A DNA stretch of 25,891 nt from the IMG/VR virus record IMGVR_UViG_3300048930_000269, positions 1-25,891 of that record. One strand, given 5' to 3'. Position numbers and translations under genes: made by a program. Under the pieces are notes generated by a model that was given only the letters and a program-made list of their open reading frames with translations, had not been told where the DNA came from and searched no databases. This document shows positions 5,928-15,306 of this stretch, piece after piece (the first letter of the stretch is position 1; the number at the start of each line of letters is the position of its first letter). Source of the DNA: a virus.

Positions 5928-7175
5928 CTATTCTTCCCGTCGATACAACCGCACACCGATCCGCTGCGCTTCCAGATACGCATCATCGGCCGTCTGAAAC
6001 ACGGTGACGCCAGACCATCCCGATTCGCCCAGCTCGAATACGGCCAGCGCTGGCACCTCCTGATCGGGCAGCAGCCAACGCGCGATGTAGCGGCGACGCA
6101 GCATGGATCGCTTGCGCGCCTGGTGATACTCAGCTCGCACCCAGATCTCGTCCGGATCGATAATGGCGTTGGCCAGCAGCGGCAAGTATTGCCCCCGCCC
6201 GCCCTTGTTGGCCTTGCTCTCGCCCGTACGGCGCTGGGTAAACATCTCTGCACCGATCACCAGCGGCTCGCCAATCACGTCGCGATAGATCACAGGCTCA
6301 TCGAGCGTTGCGTCGAAGCGCTCCAGGAAGCGGCGCGAGTACTCCTCATCCGACAGGTCCTGCGGCAGCAACTCGGTTGCGCCGACCGCGCGAGGCGGCG
6401 GCAGCGGGTCACTCGGTGCCGTATTCGGCACGCCTGGTGCGCCACTGGAACCAGGCGGAGGATCTGGCAACTCGGGTGGTACCGCGCTGTGGAGACGCGA
6501 GGCACCGGGGATGTGCTCGAAGCCGGGATCGATGCCTTTGGGGACGCGTACTGTGCGCGGCCCGTCCAATCCACGTTGGCCGATGAGACGCTCCTCCCAC
6601 TCAATCTCCGGCGCGGTATCCGGGCCGCTTTTGCCCAACCGTTCCAGATCCGCCTCGCTCAGTGCGGTGACGCTGCACTGGCAGCCCCAGGCATTGATCG
6701 GGAAAAACCACTGCCACCACTCATTGTCCCAACGCAGGATCATGCCGTCCCATGCCAGGTGTTCCTCGCGCGGATGCTCAACGGCATCGCTGTGGTGGTA
6801 CTGCCAGTAAGGCAGGTAATCGCGTGATGCATACAGCTGCTGGTAACGCCCGGCGTTGTAGCTGGAATACAGGTTTGTCTCGTAGATGGTGCGGGAGCGC
6901 CACAAGCGGCCGCCGTTATAGTCCCAGCCGTGTGTAGCGACAATGCGGTCGAAGTCCTGGCGGAATTGCTCCAGCGTGCGCCCCTCCTCCAGGAAGCGAG
7001 TTACCGCAGCGTGGAAATCCTGCACGATCGCATTGCGATTCGCGCCGGCCACCATGAAAGACCAATCGTGCTCGGCGTTGTAAATGTCCGTCCAGGCCGC
7101 AGTCGGAATCGCCAGCTTGCGACGCATGAACTCGATCTGTTCTTGAAAAGGCACCGAGCCATAACTAGCGGCCAT
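5928..7175 (-). CDS. F: MuF minor head protein fused to a PBECR2 nuclease-like domain
   Basis: 415 residues. Residues 1-180 are the Mu gpF / SPP1 gp7 domain: RTIYETNLYSSYNAGRYQQL (95-114) and INAWGCQCSV (160-169) are its marks. MuF proteins sit near the portal inside the head and can be ejected with DNA. A Pro-rich linker (about 232-262) follows. Residues about 275-415 match PBECR2, a Barnase/EndoU/ColicinE5/RelE-like domain: VIYRDVIGEPLVIG, GRGQYLPLLANAIIDPDEIW, RRRYIARW, ESGWSGVTVF and GVRLYRREE. A C-terminal nuclease domain suggests an effector delivered at infection. No adjacent immunity gene is obvious. The ATG at 7175 overlaps the portal gene by 11 nt. MuF part certain, nuclease activity inferred. 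Confidence 0.9.
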   Translation of the reverse strand: MAASYGSVPFQEQIEFMRRKLAIPTAAWTDIYNAEHDWSFMVAGANRNAIVQDFHAAVTRFLEEGRTLEQFRQDFDRIVATHGWDYNGGRLWRSRTIYETNLYSSYNAGRYQQLYASRDYLPYWQYHHSDAVEHPREEHLAWDGMILRWDNEWWQWFFPINAWGCQCSVTALSEADLERLGKSGPDTAPEIEWEERLIGQRGLDGPRTVRVPKGIDPGFEHIPGASRLHSAVPPELPDPPPGSSGAPGVPNTAPSDPLPPPRAVGATELLPQDLSDEEYSRRFLERFDATLDEPVIYRDVIGEPLVIGAEMFTQRRTGESKANKGGRGQYLPLLANAIIDPDEIWVRAEYHQARKRSMLRRRYIARWLLPDQEVPALAVFELGESGWSGVTVFQTADDAYLEAQRIGVRLYRREE

Positions 7176-11391: not shown

Positions 11392-11825
11392 CAGGAATGG
11401 GTACTCCAGTCGGTTTCAGGGACAAAGTCATAGCCGAACAGCATGCCGTCGCGGCGCTTGCTCCAGTACAGCCAGCCGCCCAGGCGGACGCCGGCCCACA
11501 TAGCCACGCGCTGCAGCCAGTTCACACCTCTGTCACGCATGGCATCGCGGAAAATGCGATCGCATTGCGCACGGCTCAGCCAGCCGTTGAGGCCCTGCGA
11601 GCAGTAGAGGTAGTCGTGTAGCACCGCCGCCTCGCGGGATCGGCCATTGACGTTGAACACGCTGCGTAGTAACCGGGGAATGCTCGCCAGGTCCGTGATG
11701 AACCCGGCGGGTACGCCGATGGTGCCGAACATCTCATGGCTATAGGCCAGTATCGCCAATACCACCCATTCGTTAGGCTCGTCGTGGGCGCGCAGGTCTA
11801 ATGAAGAGAGAAAGCCTGGCATCAT
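11391..11825 (-). CDS. DUF1353 family protein
   Basis: 144 residues. VPAGFITDLASIPRLLRSVF and AAVLHDYLYCSQGLNGWLSRAQCDRIFRDAM are the DUF1353 core; the conserved Asp, His and Asp (TDLASIP, LHDYLY) look like a metal or catalytic site. DUF1353 proteins are frequent in tailed phages, often beside lysis genes, with no settled function. Here it takes the place of Mu gp23/gp24, the latter being a spanin candidate. Start is at either of two adjacent ATGs (11825 or 11822) overlapping the endolysin stop. Confidence 0.85.
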   Translation of the reverse strand: MMPGFLSSLDLRAHDEPNEWVVLAILAYSHEMFGTIGVPAGFITDLASIPRLLRSVFNVNGRSREAAVLHDYLYCSQGLNGWLSRAQCDRIFRDAMRDRGVNWLQRVAMWAGVRLGGWLYWSKRRDGMLFGYDFVPETDWSTHS

Positions 11826-12394
11826 GCCACCGCCGGTATGGGTGCCAGCCCCAGTGCGTTGCGCGCGCGACGCCAGTACGCATCGCGATCCTTATAGCCG
11901 TTATAGCCACCGTTGATCTTGCGGGTGATCGTGCGGAAATCGTTGATGTCGGCCCACAGGTTCAGGCCCTTGTCCCACCAGAACCAGCAGGCCGACTGAA
12001 CGGCGAACTCTGCCGACTCCAGCAGCTCCGGGTGCGAGCACAGATCCACTCCCAGGGCATCACCGCAGGAACGGTAGTTGGTGGCGCCGGTGATCTGGAT
12101 CAGGCCACGGCCACGGAATCTTTGCCCGTCACCGTCCGCCGCAGGTGTGTTGCCCAGGCGTTTTGCGAGAGTGCCGGTGTCGTATTTGGCCAGGTAGTTG
12201 TTACTGCCCAGCTCGCGCACATAGCGAAACTCTGCACTCTCGTGCATCACCTGGCCAAGGAACGCCGCCAGGCGAACGGGTGTATCTATGCTGTACGCAG
12301 GCGCATGGATGGCCAGGTGCGGCAGGTATTCGCCACAGCGGGCCTTACCCGCCTTGGTGATACAAATCTGCTGTAACTGTTTGAGGGTGATCAC
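11822..12394 (-). CDS. Endolysin, GH19 chitinase/lysozyme-like
   Basis: 190 residues from the GTG at 12394. The glycoside hydrolase 19 core is clear: AAFLGQVMHESAEFRYVRE gives catalytic Glu at about 52 with a second Glu at about 61; RFRGRGLIQITGATNY (91-106) is the substrate cleft motif; SACWFWWDKGLNLWAD follows. It hydrolyses the glycan strands of peptidoglycan at the end of infection. No signal peptide or SAR helix is seen, so a holin would be needed, but none is recognised nearby. The reading frame continues to a GTG at 12493, but the extra 33 residues lie over the dyad region and are not typical of the family. It is the first gene of the leftward late operon. Confidence 0.85.
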   Translation of the reverse strand: MITLKQLQQICITKAGKARCGEYLPHLAIHAPAYSIDTPVRLAAFLGQVMHESAEFRYVRELGSNNYLAKYDTGTLAKRLGNTPAADGDGQRFRGRGLIQITGATNYRSCGDALGVDLCSHPELLESAEFAVQSACWFWWDKGLNLWADINDFRTITRKINGGYNGYKDRDAYWRRARNALGLAPIPAVA

Positions 12395-12432
12395 GCGCCG
12401 GCCTGTTATCTCGTAAACACGGCCAGCTTGCC

Positions 12433-12444
12433 CGCGCGCGCGCG
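12433..12444. repeat. Alternating CG tract
   Basis: An uninterrupted run of six CG dinucleotides lies between the endolysin start and the dyad element. Such tracts can adopt Z-DNA under negative supercoiling. It may simply reflect GC-rich composition. Seen directly; no function claimed. Confidence 0.5.
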
Positions 12445-12454
12445 AGGCGTAATC

Positions 12455-12480
12455 TTGCCTAGGCAAAAATAGCTTTGCCT
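12455..12480. promoter_or_regulatory. TTGCCT dyad beside the late operon, candidate Mor site
   Basis: TTGCCTAGGCAA (12455-12466) is a perfect 12-bp palindrome. The half-site TTGCCT recurs at 12475-12480, exactly 20 bp from the first, i.e. two helical turns. It lies between the leftward endolysin and the rightward small gene at 12524. Mor/C-type activators bind dyads near position -43 of their promoters. A weak CACAAT box at 12491-12496 would put this dyad near -43 for rightward transcription; I see no good leftward -10 box. Binding by Mor is inference. Confidence 0.45.
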
Positions 12481-12523
12481 GGATTGAGGTCACAATGCGA
12501 GCTCCACCATCAGGCGCAGCACT

Positions 12524-12787
12524 ATGAACGGTTCACAAAAGGTGACGTTTACCGGGGAACAACGTGTGTTCCTGCGTGCTCTGGTTGAAAACTGGCAAGC
12601 CGAGGCTCAAACCGCACAACACTGTGTCGGCTTGTGCATTGACGAGTATGAGAAGGCCAAGCTGGCCAACAGGCATAAGCACTTTCAGACCTGCGCTAAC
12701 GACCTGACCACGGTATTGGAGCAGGGCCACTTGCCACCGCGCGTTGCGCATGGGCAGTGGCTGGAGGCGATGAGAGCACGGGCTTAA
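12524..12787 (+). CDS. Hypothetical small protein of the accessory segment
   Basis: 87 residues. N-terminal FTGEQRVFLRALVENWQAEAQ and a helical middle (DEYEKAKLANRHKHFQTCAND), ending with PRVAHGQWLEAMRARA. It is soluble, predicted helical, with four scattered residues able to bind metal (Cys and His) but no clear finger. The start ATG at 12524 has no strong ribosome site. It runs opposite to the late operon and is followed, after a gap rich in hairpins, by the methyltransferase, so they may be co-transcribed. The antisense frame is also open (12533-12820) but has a less protein-like composition. Function unknown. Confidence 0.5.
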   Translation: MNGSQKVTFTGEQRVFLRALVENWQAEAQTAQHCVGLCIDEYEKAKLANRHKHFQTCANDLTTVLEQGHLPPRVAHGQWLEAMRARA

Positions 12788-12802
12788 GAGCAAAAGCAAA
12801 CA

Positions 12803-12931
12803 GCGGATCTCGGTCCGCAAGAAAACGAAAAAGACGGGCGACTGACTGCTGCGCTAACAGCAGCCAGCCCCCTCATCGCGACCTACGAGGGATCGCAAAT
12901 CGGGCCATGACCCGCCACTGTGCGCGCACAG
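12803..12931 (+). repeat. Three hairpins/palindromes ahead of the methyltransferase gene
   Basis: The 189-nt gap 12788-12976 holds no convincing gene. It has a GCGGA/TCCGC stem (12803-12818, 6-nt loop), a CTGCTG/CAGCAG stem (12846-12863, 6-nt loop) and a perfect 14-bp palindrome CTGTGCGCGCACAG (12918-12931). None is followed by a T run, so they do not look like terminators. They could be a structured 5' leader controlling methyltransferase expression or operator sites. Seen directly; function open. Confidence 0.5.
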
Positions 12932-12976
12932 CAGGGGCAGTCTACCGGCCGATAACACGGACCACAAGGAGACCCC

Positions 12977-13786
12977 GTGAGCAAACCCCTCGTACCCTGG
13001 ATTGGTGGAAAGCGCAAATTGGCGGATCATATCGTGCCGCTGTTTCCTGACCACACCTGCTACGTCGAGCCGTTCTGTGGTGCGGCGGCGATTTTCTTTT
13101 GCAAACCGCCCAGTTCGGTGGAGGTGCTGAACGATATCAACGGCGATCTGGTGAACCTTTACCGGGTCGTTAAGCACCACTTAGAGGAGCTGTATAAACA
13201 GTTTAAGTGGGCGCTGAGTGGCCGCCAAAATTGGGAGTGGCTGCAGATCACTCCGGTGGAAACACTGACAGACGTGCAGCGTGCTGCGCGCTTTCTCTAC
13301 CTGCAGAAGTTGGCCTTCGGCGGCCTGGTGGAAGGCCAGTCATTCGGCACCGCCACGACCAGCCGGCCGCGCTTCAATATCTTCACTCTGGAACAGGATC
13401 TTGCCGATGCACATTACCGCCTCGCGCATGCCACGATCGAGCACCTGGACTGGCGAAAGATCATCACGCGCTACGACCGGCCGCACACGCTTTTCTATCT
13501 CGATCCACCTTACTGGGAGACCGAGGGCTACGGGGTGGATTTCGGCTGGGAGAACTACCAGGACATCGCGCGCCTGGCGGGCGAGATCGAGGGCCAGATG
13601 ATTATCAGCATTAACGCCCATCCAGAGGTACACGAGTTGCTGGGGCATCTGCCCCACACCTCAGTCGACTACAAGTACACCGTGGCAGGCAACGGCCAAT
13701 CGAGTGAGTGTACGGAGATGATTTACGGCACTTGGCGCGAGGGCAAGGTGCCGCCGCCCAGGGGCGTCACAGGGGGTTTATTCTGA
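12977..13786 (+). CDS. D12-class N6-adenine DNA methyltransferase
   Basis: 269 residues from a GTG start with AAGGAG 5 nt upstream. Motifs are in D12/Dam order: PWIGGKRKL (7-15), CYVEPFCGAAAIFF (28-41) for AdoMet binding, NDINGDLVNLYRVVK (52-66), and the catalytic DPPY (176-179). It methylates adenine in a short site, possibly GATC as in Dam, although the target is not shown by sequence. No restriction partner gene is next to it, so it is probably an orphan that shields phage DNA from host restriction or alters gene control, like Mu's Mom in purpose but not in chemistry. It runs convergently with the gene at 13805, with an 18-nt gap. Confidence 0.9.
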   Translation: MSKPLVPWIGGKRKLADHIVPLFPDHTCYVEPFCGAAAIFFCKPPSSVEVLNDINGDLVNLYRVVKHHLEELYKQFKWALSGRQNWEWLQITPVETLTDVQRAARFLYLQKLAFGGLVEGQSFGTATTSRPRFNIFTLEQDLADAHYRLAHATIEHLDWRKIITRYDRPHTLFYLDPPYWETEGYGVDFGWENYQDIARLAGEIEGQMIISINAHPEVHELLGHLPHTSVDYKYTVAGNGQSSECTEMIYGTWREGKVPPPRGVTGGLF

Positions 13787-13804: not shown

Positions 13805-14026
13805 TTAAATCCATCTCCGCAGCCACCCCATCGCATCAGGCAACCGCGCCAGGCCTTCCCGGGCGAGGCCAGCTGTCACTGCCTGGAGGTGCTGCGCTGA
13901 CAGCGCATTGACCGACGCCGCCAACTCGGCCTTTTCGGTGGCGAGCAGATCGGAGTTCTCGATTGCGGCGAGGAGGACATCGCGGATCGGGGTGGCGTGG
14001 ATTTTCGGGGTTGGCTGGGTGCTCAT
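13805..14026 (-). CDS. Small hypothetical protein of the accessory segment
   Basis: 73 residues, starting MSTQPTPKIHATPIRDVLLA at the ATG at 14026, with GGAAG about 5 nt upstream. The rest (IENSDLLATEKAELAASVNALSAQHLQAVTA, then GLARLPDAMGWLRRWI) is predicted all-helical and amphipathic, with a Trp/Arg C-terminus that might touch the membrane. It has no catalytic motif I recognise. It is on the repressor's strand and follows the zinc-ribbon membrane gene by 23 nt, so it may be expressed in the lysogen. The frame is open further upstream but in shadow composition. Confidence 0.55.
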   Translation of the reverse strand: MSTQPTPKIHATPIRDVLLAAIENSDLLATEKAELAASVNALSAQHLQAVTAGLAREGLARLPDAMGWLRRWI

Positions 14027-14049
14027 GTTGCTTCCACTCGCGGTCAGAT

Positions 14050-14484
14050 TTAGTTTGCAATCCATAACAGCAGACCGGCTAAGCAGGCCCCCGCAAATAC
14101 CAGGACTCCCAGAGCAGTACCACGCGAATGTTCGATCTCTACGACAGGCAGATTTGTGCCGCAGTATCTGCATTTTGCAGCTTCGTTCCTGACAACTTCT
14201 GCACACGCTGTACATTTTTTGTACCCATTGAGCACTTCCCCATCTGCTAGTCGTTGCTTTTCATTCTTACGGGATGCAGTGATACCCAGCGCTACTGCGA
14301 ATATAACGATCCCGGTAGTAATGTAAGAAAACCCGAGACCCGAGGCGAAGGCTGTACCTATAAAAATCGCGGTAGTGGTCAACAGTCCATGCCAGAACCA
14401 ATTGAGACCACGGACTGCAGCAATCAGAGCTATCACTATTCCACCGAGGAACACAATGGACACTACAAAATTCGGCGCATTCAT
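14050..14484 (-). CDS. Four-helix membrane protein with a zinc ribbon
   Basis: 144 residues with four predicted transmembrane helices: about 6-24 (VVSIVFLGGIVIALIAAV), 32-50, 53-70 and 121-142 (GTALGVLVFAGACLAGLLLW). Between helices 3 and 4 sits a cytoplasmic or exposed zinc ribbon with Cys at 91, 94, 105 and 108 (CTACAEVV...CRYCG). The ATG at 14484 has GGAGAG upstream. It is one gene downstream of the repressor on the same strand, the usual place for lysogenic-conversion or superinfection-exclusion genes. By eye it is less GC-rich than the head genes, which suggests separate acquisition. No close family is recognised; function is inference from position. Confidence 0.7.
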   Translation of the reverse strand: MNAPNFVVSIVFLGGIVIALIAAVRGLNWFWHGLLTTTAIFIGTAFASGLGFSYITTGIVIFAVALGITASRKNEKQRLADGEVLNGYKKCTACAEVVRNEAAKCRYCGTNLPVVEIEHSRGTALGVLVFAGACLAGLLLWIAN

Positions 14485-14536: not shown

Positions 14537-14989
14537 TCATTTGCCGCTTTTCTTTTTGCCATCACGTCCGTGTGAGAGAGCACTAGCCGCGCTTTCCACG
14601 GCCCGTTTTCCTTCCTCGCTCGACCCCCTGTAATTTTCGATAAGCGCTCGTTCTCGCCGACTCAATCTGACCAGGTCTACGTCGCTTTCAGCAATACGCA
14701 CATCACGCATCACCTCATTTGCCAGAACCTGATAGTCCGCTGGTGGTTGTTTGTGACGTTCGATATATCGATCTTTGGCTGTTGCGCCATGCAGCACCCA
14801 TTGAGGGTCAATCAACAGTTCGGGGCGTTTTGCGATCAGCGCGAATAGCTTGTCTTCAGGGAATGCATCTCTAGCTTTCCTTGCGGTAAATGCTTTCACG
14901 GTCATCCCTAACAGCGCGGCAACCTCTTTGTCGGTTTCCAGTCCCGCCGCCTGCTTGAGACGCAAAAGAATATCTACAAAAGTATCCAT
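14537..14989 (-). CDS. CI-type lysogeny repressor
   Basis: 150 residues. The N-terminal domain is a Phage_CI_repr-type helix-turn-helix: GLETDKEVAALLGMTVKAFT (about 16-35), then ARKARDAFPEDKLFALIAKR and DPQWVLHG (61-68). This family closes its DNA-binding domain with the 'WVLHG/WLLTG' end. The C-terminal half is helical (LSRRERALIENYRGSSEEGK) with no LexA-type peptidase, so SOS self-cleavage is unlikely. It lies divergent to the gp16-like regulator. AAGGA 4 nt before the ATG is the ribosome site. It should bind the ACTACA/TGTAGT dyad and shut off the early promoter. Confidence 0.85.
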   Translation of the reverse strand: MDTFVDILLRLKQAAGLETDKEVAALLGMTVKAFTARKARDAFPEDKLFALIAKRPELLIDPQWVLHGATAKDRYIERHKQPPADYQVLANEVMRDVRIAESDVDLVRLSRRERALIENYRGSSEEGKRAVESAASALSHGRDGKKKSGK

Positions 14990-14995
14990 AGGTCC

Positions 14996-15023
14996 TTTAC
15001 AAGACTACAAATGTAGTTATAAA
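14996..15023 (+). promoter_or_regulatory. Early rightward promoter with embedded operator dyad
   Basis: TTTACA at 14996-15001 and TATAAA at 15018-15023 are spaced 16 nt, a near-consensus sigma-70 promoter reading toward the gp16-like gene. The spacer is filled by the dyad ACTACA-AA-TGTAGT (15004-15017), so a bound repressor would block RNA polymerase. CTACA also recurs at 14974-14978 and 15050-15054. A weaker leftward promoter for the repressor (TAGTCA, complement of 15039-15044, 17 nt, TATAAC, complement of 15016-15021) overlaps it. All boxes are seen directly; use is inferred. Confidence 0.6.
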
Positions 15024-15075
15024 CTCCATATACAGCATTGACTATGTTGCTACACAGTTAAGAAGGAGCACTACC

Positions 15076-15306
15076 ATGGACGCACCATACCCATTACCTA
15101 TCAACAAGCCGTATAGCAGTCAGGAGGTCAAGGCCAAGTTCCTGGCTGCAGGGGTCACGATTTCGAGCTGGGCGAAAGCCAACGGCTATTCGCGTCATAA
15201 AGTCTATTTCGTCATCAACGGCCAACTCAAAGGCCATTGGGGTAGTTCACACGACATCGCCGTCGCGCTCGGCATGAAACTGTCAGTCGCGCAGATCGCC
15301 GCGTAG
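15076..15306 (+). CDS. BcepMu gp16-family early regulator (Ner/Cro analogue)
   Basis: 76 residues. EVKAKFLAAGVTISSWAKAN, GYSRHKVYFVINGQLKGHWG and HDIAVALGMK are the signature of the BcepMu gp16 family, small helix-turn-helix proteins encoded first in the early operon. It is placed like Ner in Mu or Cro in lambda: divergent from the CI-type repressor, reading into the transposition genes. It probably lowers repressor or early transcription. ATG at 15076 with AAGGAG 8 nt upstream. DNA contact residues lie within about 23-45. Confidence 0.88.
   Translation: MDAPYPLPINKPYSSQEVKAKFLAAGVTISSWAKANGYSRHKVYFVINGQLKGHWGSSHDIAVALGMKLSVAQIAA

Follow-up and report, generated by a model that had tools for sequence, protein, structure and literature searches.

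The 25.9-kb IMG/VR record analysed here, whose 25,891 nucleotides are called the window, is part of the genome of a BcepMu-like transposable phage in which family matches identify P0009 and P0010 as the Mu-type transposase and ATPase. A CI-type repressor (P0003), presumed to be the first gene of the lysogenic transcript, and a gene of the BcepMu gp16 type (P0004), used as the anchor for comparing loci, diverge from a control region with imperfect CTACAAATGTA repeats and a promoter-like TTTACA..TAAACT on the + strand, recognised from consensus matches only (Table 1). Downstream of the repressor, on its strand, lie the two open reading frames that a first-pass annotation had described as a lysogen-expressed pair, P0002 and P0001; both were found in place. 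P0002 starts 52 bp after the repressor stop. A gap of 23 bp separates it from P0001, whose ATG is preceded by a ribosome-site-like GTGGAAG, and matches to internal promoters or terminators between the repressor and P0001 were near expectation. P0006 converges on P0001 and forms the other boundary of the slot, in which a Dam gene is found in ∼20 relatives too. The order past P0001 is P0006 and P0007, both on the opposite strand, followed by a GH19 endolysin and the late genes; a terminator-like stem could end the repressor transcript ahead of the lysis and late genes. No relative of P0007 was found among the fetched loci (described below), and its family hits were sub-threshold only. At 11822-13786 of the window, P0007, the opposite-strand Dam methylase and the GH19 endolysin replace the holin and SLT endolysin genes of relatives, and none of the fetched loci carries the window's GH19 endolysin.

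Table 1. Features around the repressor of the window and recognisable occupants of the same slot in related phages
Feature	Sequence	Coordinates	Strand	Match or remark
P0007, 87 aa	Window	12524-12787	+	Between Dam and endolysin
Terminator-like stem	Window	12803..12818	-	Site count not above expectation; fold z -1.5
P0006, Dam-type adenine methyltransferase	Window	12977..13786	+	PF02086, E 5.5e-29
P0001, 73-aa helical protein	Window	13805..14026	-	C-terminal domain of phrog_3983
P0002, four-helix membrane protein with CxxC-x10-CxxC, 144 aa	Window	14050..14484	-	phrog_31852-like
P0003, CI-type repressor, HTH	Window	14537..14989	-	PF07022, E 5e-6
Divergent control region, repressor/gp16-type gene	Window	14990..15075		Consensus matches only
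P0004, BcepMu gp16-family HTH protein	Window	15076..15306	+	TIGR04111, E 3e-23
RexA	L071	3606-4559		E 3e-58
AbiJ_NTD4 with DUF7014	L031	4345-5280
DUF4062	L107	1551-2582		E 1.4e-30; two genes behind the repressor of a Mu-like prophage
Imm_superinfect fused to zinc ribbon	L011	3231-3677		E 1e-15

The AlphaFold2 model of P0002 alone (low confidence, pLDDT 57) contains helices at residues 3-26, 29-50, 54-81 and 122-143, the second of which is weak by hydropathy, with C91, C94, C105 and C108 between helices 3 and 4, in agreement with the ribbon arrangement described earlier. The positive stretch SRKNEKQR ahead of the zinc ribbon suggests that the ribbon is cytoplasmic. P0002 matches phrog_31852 (residues 11-112, E 6.8e-11) and phrog_8436 (E 6e-8), phage proteins of unknown function with two or three transmembrane (TM) segments and a KKCPFCAE-type zinc ribbon, and the invariant YKKC..CAE..R.EA.KC..C is common to P0002 and both families. 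The homology covers the TM region and the ribbon. Members of phrog_31852 have three helices and end after the ribbon, whereas P0002 continues into a fourth, C-terminal TM helix that is present in 0/7 aligned homologues; its place behind a BcepMu-type repressor also sets it apart. P0002 is thus a four-helix form, new to a phage family that is known but uncharacterised; the earlier suggestion of an undescribed system is not supported.

Profile and database comparisons assigned P0002 to no defence family, as the first-pass annotation had judged. PADLOC gave no hit for P0001 or P0002, NCBIfam nothing above cut-off for either, and the Imm_superinfect profile (PF14373) did not match P0002. With Zn_ribbon_3 (PF13248) P0002 scored 20.6 bits, below the curated cut-off of 27, though the four cysteines are present. 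A Hom_end match to P0002 (E 0.025) was rejected as chance. Nothing was found in a sequence search of solved structures, and a single-sequence search of viral contigs returned no close relatives of P0001 or P0002; relatives of both were found by profile searches instead. The closest homologue of P0002 (L142/L143; 41% identity over 110 aa, E 4e-23) adjoins a CI repressor (phrog_4, E 4e-39) in an unrelated phage. A three-helix-plus-ribbon protein was also seen directly ahead of a large gene in L151, L162, L175, L176 and L210. A ribbon-TM gene stands immediately upstream of the tape measure gene in 16/34 non-redundant loci; in those 16 the next gene lies 46-142 bp downstream, and 16/16 match phrog_339 (tape measure). 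A22, W29, G33 and the ribbon are invariant across P0002 and a broader group of proteins from phages and Pseudomonas, and a Pseudomonas-wide search found no full-length P0002.

P0001 matches only positions 98-162 of the 165 of phrog_3983 (E 3e-7), a family of winged-helix proteins of the lysogeny region: it has their C-terminal helical domain and lacks the N-terminal winged helix. Its full-length relatives (L056, L076, L104 and L116; ∼165 aa) carry ∼90 additional N-terminal residues and consist of the winged helix and four C-terminal helices; the best Foldseek matches of the winged helix, from a weak model, are MepR/MarR (E ∼2e-3). Identity to P0001 is 44-49% over 68 aa for L076 and L056 and 44-52% among relatives overall. 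A FinO match to P0001 (E 0.005) was rejected as chance. Third codon positions are the most variable for both P0002 and P0001 and, given this variation and the homologues at 41% and 44-52% identity, both reading frames look like genuine genes. Elsewhere the phrog_3983 family is found mostly as lone genes opposed to their neighbours, and often on the cI strand in the interval from cro to cII, where by analogy with the lambda map they would lie on a CII-activated transcript. P0001 is thus lysogeny-associated, and there is no sign of a partnership with P0002.

The start of P0001, with its plausible ribosome site, falls exactly at the domain boundary. Such a start, in an intact reading frame of typical codon usage, speaks against a remnant, here meaning the end of a phrog_3983 gene whose winged-helix part was lost by recombination at the slot. 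The remnant reading is nevertheless a serious one, to which we give somewhat less than an even chance. All full-length relatives have the extra N-terminal residues, chimaeric slots are common among related phages, and what phage U11 retains of the C-terminal domain, encoded behind its repressor and an unrelated 67-aa gene, is shorter still. The coding-type divergence of P0001, which would also argue against a remnant, mostly reflects the time before truncation. In U11 (L001), the unannotated P0001-like ORF (5962-6183) is overlapped by an annotated gene (6041-6523) of the other strand; probably one of them is a misannotation.

Base composition separates the two genes. P0002 (GC 49.0%, GC3 46%, versus 60% GC for the phage) is the lowest of the called window genes, which bears out the earlier remark that the membrane gene is less GC-rich. 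The repressor (GC 51.4%) has the second lowest GC3, 48%, and P0001 (GC 64.4%, GC3 77%) resembles the phage core. P0002 was missed when genes were called with training on the codon usage of the phage itself, consistent with a foreign composition. P0002 and the repressor, both AT-rich, may therefore be of outside origin, perhaps jointly, and the core-like P0001 would have arrived separately from them.

To compare the slot across relatives, loci with related transposases were fetched, 80 of them in viral contigs and 34 in genomes; 100 loci were anchored on gp16, with genes called by a simple codon-usage caller. The repressor and the holin-like gene each recur in ∼60 loci, and the proteins between them fall into ∼100 clusters, many of them singletons, so turnover in the slot is heavy. 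RexA, AbiJ_NTD4, DUF4062 and Imm_superinfect proteins were recognised among 65 slot representatives (Table 1). The first gene after the repressor encodes a predicted TM segment in 24/37 non-redundant loci, compared with 6/233 early genes. Turnover, recognisable occupants and TM enrichment together support, for this phage group, the earlier argument that the position downstream of the repressor is the classical place for superinfection exclusion. In Fc02, also a transposable phage, superinfecting phages are excluded by a gene that appears to share the repressor's transcript (PMC9936078), and in KS10 two hypothetical-protein genes lie behind the repressor, with table values of 53.5 and 54.9 versus 56.7 for the repressor (PMC2628397). 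Two further clusters, of 11 members each, make up a recurring pair of genes: one for an NA37 nucleoid-associated protein (PF04245) and, after it, one for a protein of ∼400 aa that matches no Pfam family and has two TM helices at its C-terminus (e.g., L092:1227-3420 and L020:1859-4133); this cargo is a possible defence pair.

The position of P0002 is that of a moron, an accessory lysogen gene: the slot turns over, the composition of the gene deviates, and homologues occupy other moron sites. We propose that P0002 is coexpressed with the repressor during lysogeny, resides in the inner membrane with the zinc ribbon on the cytoplasmic side, and blocks the entry of DNA from superinfecting phages, probably by disturbing the channel formed between the tape measure protein and the host membrane, similarly to HK97 gp15 or T4 Imm. 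P0001 would be a resident gene in its own right, encoding only the C-terminal helical domain of a winged-helix regulator from the lysogeny region, and may retain a dimerisation or partner-binding role if it is not a remnant. For this joint reading, a DNA-entry-blocking moron beside an independent regulator domain, we put the chances at about even. Of the first-pass proposal, a likely exclusion gene in a genuine exclusion slot is thus retained; P0001 is recast as a truncated regulator and probably no partner of P0002.

Comparison with known exclusion proteins shows where the likeness lies. HK97 gp15 excludes phages at DNA injection (PMC10883804); this moron is encoded immediately upstream of the tape measure gene, as are the P0002 homologues, and both proteins are predicted to reside in the inner membrane. 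With 62 aa, one TM segment and no zinc ribbon, gp15 resembles P0002 in position only, and homology was rejected for want of any sequence relation. The Imm_superinfect protein of L011 (PF14373, T4 Imm-type), from a phage whose transposase is 69% identical to that of the window phage, occupies the same slot and has a TM region followed by the same type of ribbon; the TM region itself differs from that of P0002. The RexAB genes of lambda and the Fc02 exclusion gene, like P0002, are encoded on the repressor's strand, after or next to it, and RexA itself occurs in the slot (L071), although these genes have no sequence relation to P0002 or P0001. SNIPE (PMC13190303), a membrane nuclease that acts on DNA at injection, has a link to the tape measure protein such as is proposed for P0002, but carries a nuclease domain that P0002 lacks. 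A search for a tested function among P0002 homologues found none.

Moron functions are diverse, and morons at such positions may do other things, such as surface change, virulence or metabolism. P0002 might accordingly alter the host membrane or surface for a benefit unrelated to phage defence (stress, transport or virulence), in keeping with the related two-TM-plus-ribbon proteins in Pseudomonas genomes. Both the recognisable occupants of the slot and the position of homologues before tape measure genes point to exclusion instead, and we regard this alternative as unlikely.

That P0002 is the holin or antiholin of the phage, making the late membrane lesions that release the GH19 endolysin, would fit a small four-helix protein, the only multi-TM protein in the window, encoded on the late-gene strand ∼1.6 kb upstream of the endolysin. 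The window has neither the holin (phrog_1528) nor the SLT endolysin of its relatives; the phrog_1528 (BcepMu-type) profile had no match there, and no other recognisable holin was seen. The window is a fragment, however, and the holin may lie outside it. P0002 homologues occur ahead of tape measure genes or next to CI repressors rather than in lysis cassettes, and phage U7, with a gene of this kind upstream of its tape measure gene, has two annotated holins elsewhere. Two + strand genes and the terminator-like site separate P0002 from the endolysin, and its AT-rich composition is that of the repressor and unlike that of the late genes. A role in lysis is consequently quite unlikely.

A two-gene defence or toxin-antitoxin system formed by P0002 and P0001 would account for their tight tandem. 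In phages whose repressor DNA-binding domain is related (L056), genes for a zinc-ribbon membrane protein and a P0001-family protein likewise lie behind the repressor; in L056, however, another gene intervenes and no homology between its ribbon protein and P0002 was detected. The opposite composition of the two genes argues against a pair, as do P0002 homologues that occur without P0001 and P0001 relatives with unrelated neighbours (the 67-aa protein in U11, a 200-aa protein in L076). In every relative found, this domain of a separate regulator family occurs without P0002, and a joint system is very unlikely.

In relatives the C-terminal tail of the repressor has short motifs in common with the N-terminus of the next protein downstream, often a membrane protein. 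These belong to several unrelated classes: G..NRVAGRDY.E (e.g., L011, L021, L030, L031 and L056), FNG..GQF..RDIIN (L033, L093 and L101), V.GDIG..VNAE (L091 and L107) and GNNNIQV (L071, the slot also holding RexA); L055 and L083 are further loci with shared motifs. Co-occurrence in the G..NRVAGRDY.E class gave a Fisher p of 1.3e-8, which overstates independence because the loci are related. Tail-head alignment scores averaged 29.3 for true partners versus 18.9, with a permutation p of 5e-5, the smallest possible, again among related loci. In L008, L021, L030, L031 and L056 the downstream protein consists of the motif, a zinc ribbon and two TM segments. The arrangement is reminiscent of receptor/effector pairing through amyloid signalling motifs (PMC12261475); no report linking amyloid signalling to phage repressors was found in the literature. 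The DNA-binding domain of the window repressor is closest to those of L056, L021 and L108 and its tail to those of L010 and phage U11. L056 and L021 have the shared motif, yet in the window it is absent: the own-partner score of the repressor and P0002 ranks 24th of 37. It is improbable that the slot encodes membrane effectors coupled to the repressor by a homotypic motif, with P0002 a motif-free member, the repressor nucleating or holding the effector and setting it off upon a change of repressor state at superinfection or induction.

The slot survey shows that a changing assortment of exclusion genes is maintained behind the repressor in BcepMu-like phages. The ribbon-TM proteins, to which P0002 belongs, form a common uncharacterised phage family with hundreds of loci in viral contigs, and its members are now linked both to the repressor operon and to the position directly ahead of the tape measure gene, each a recognised place for exclusion genes.
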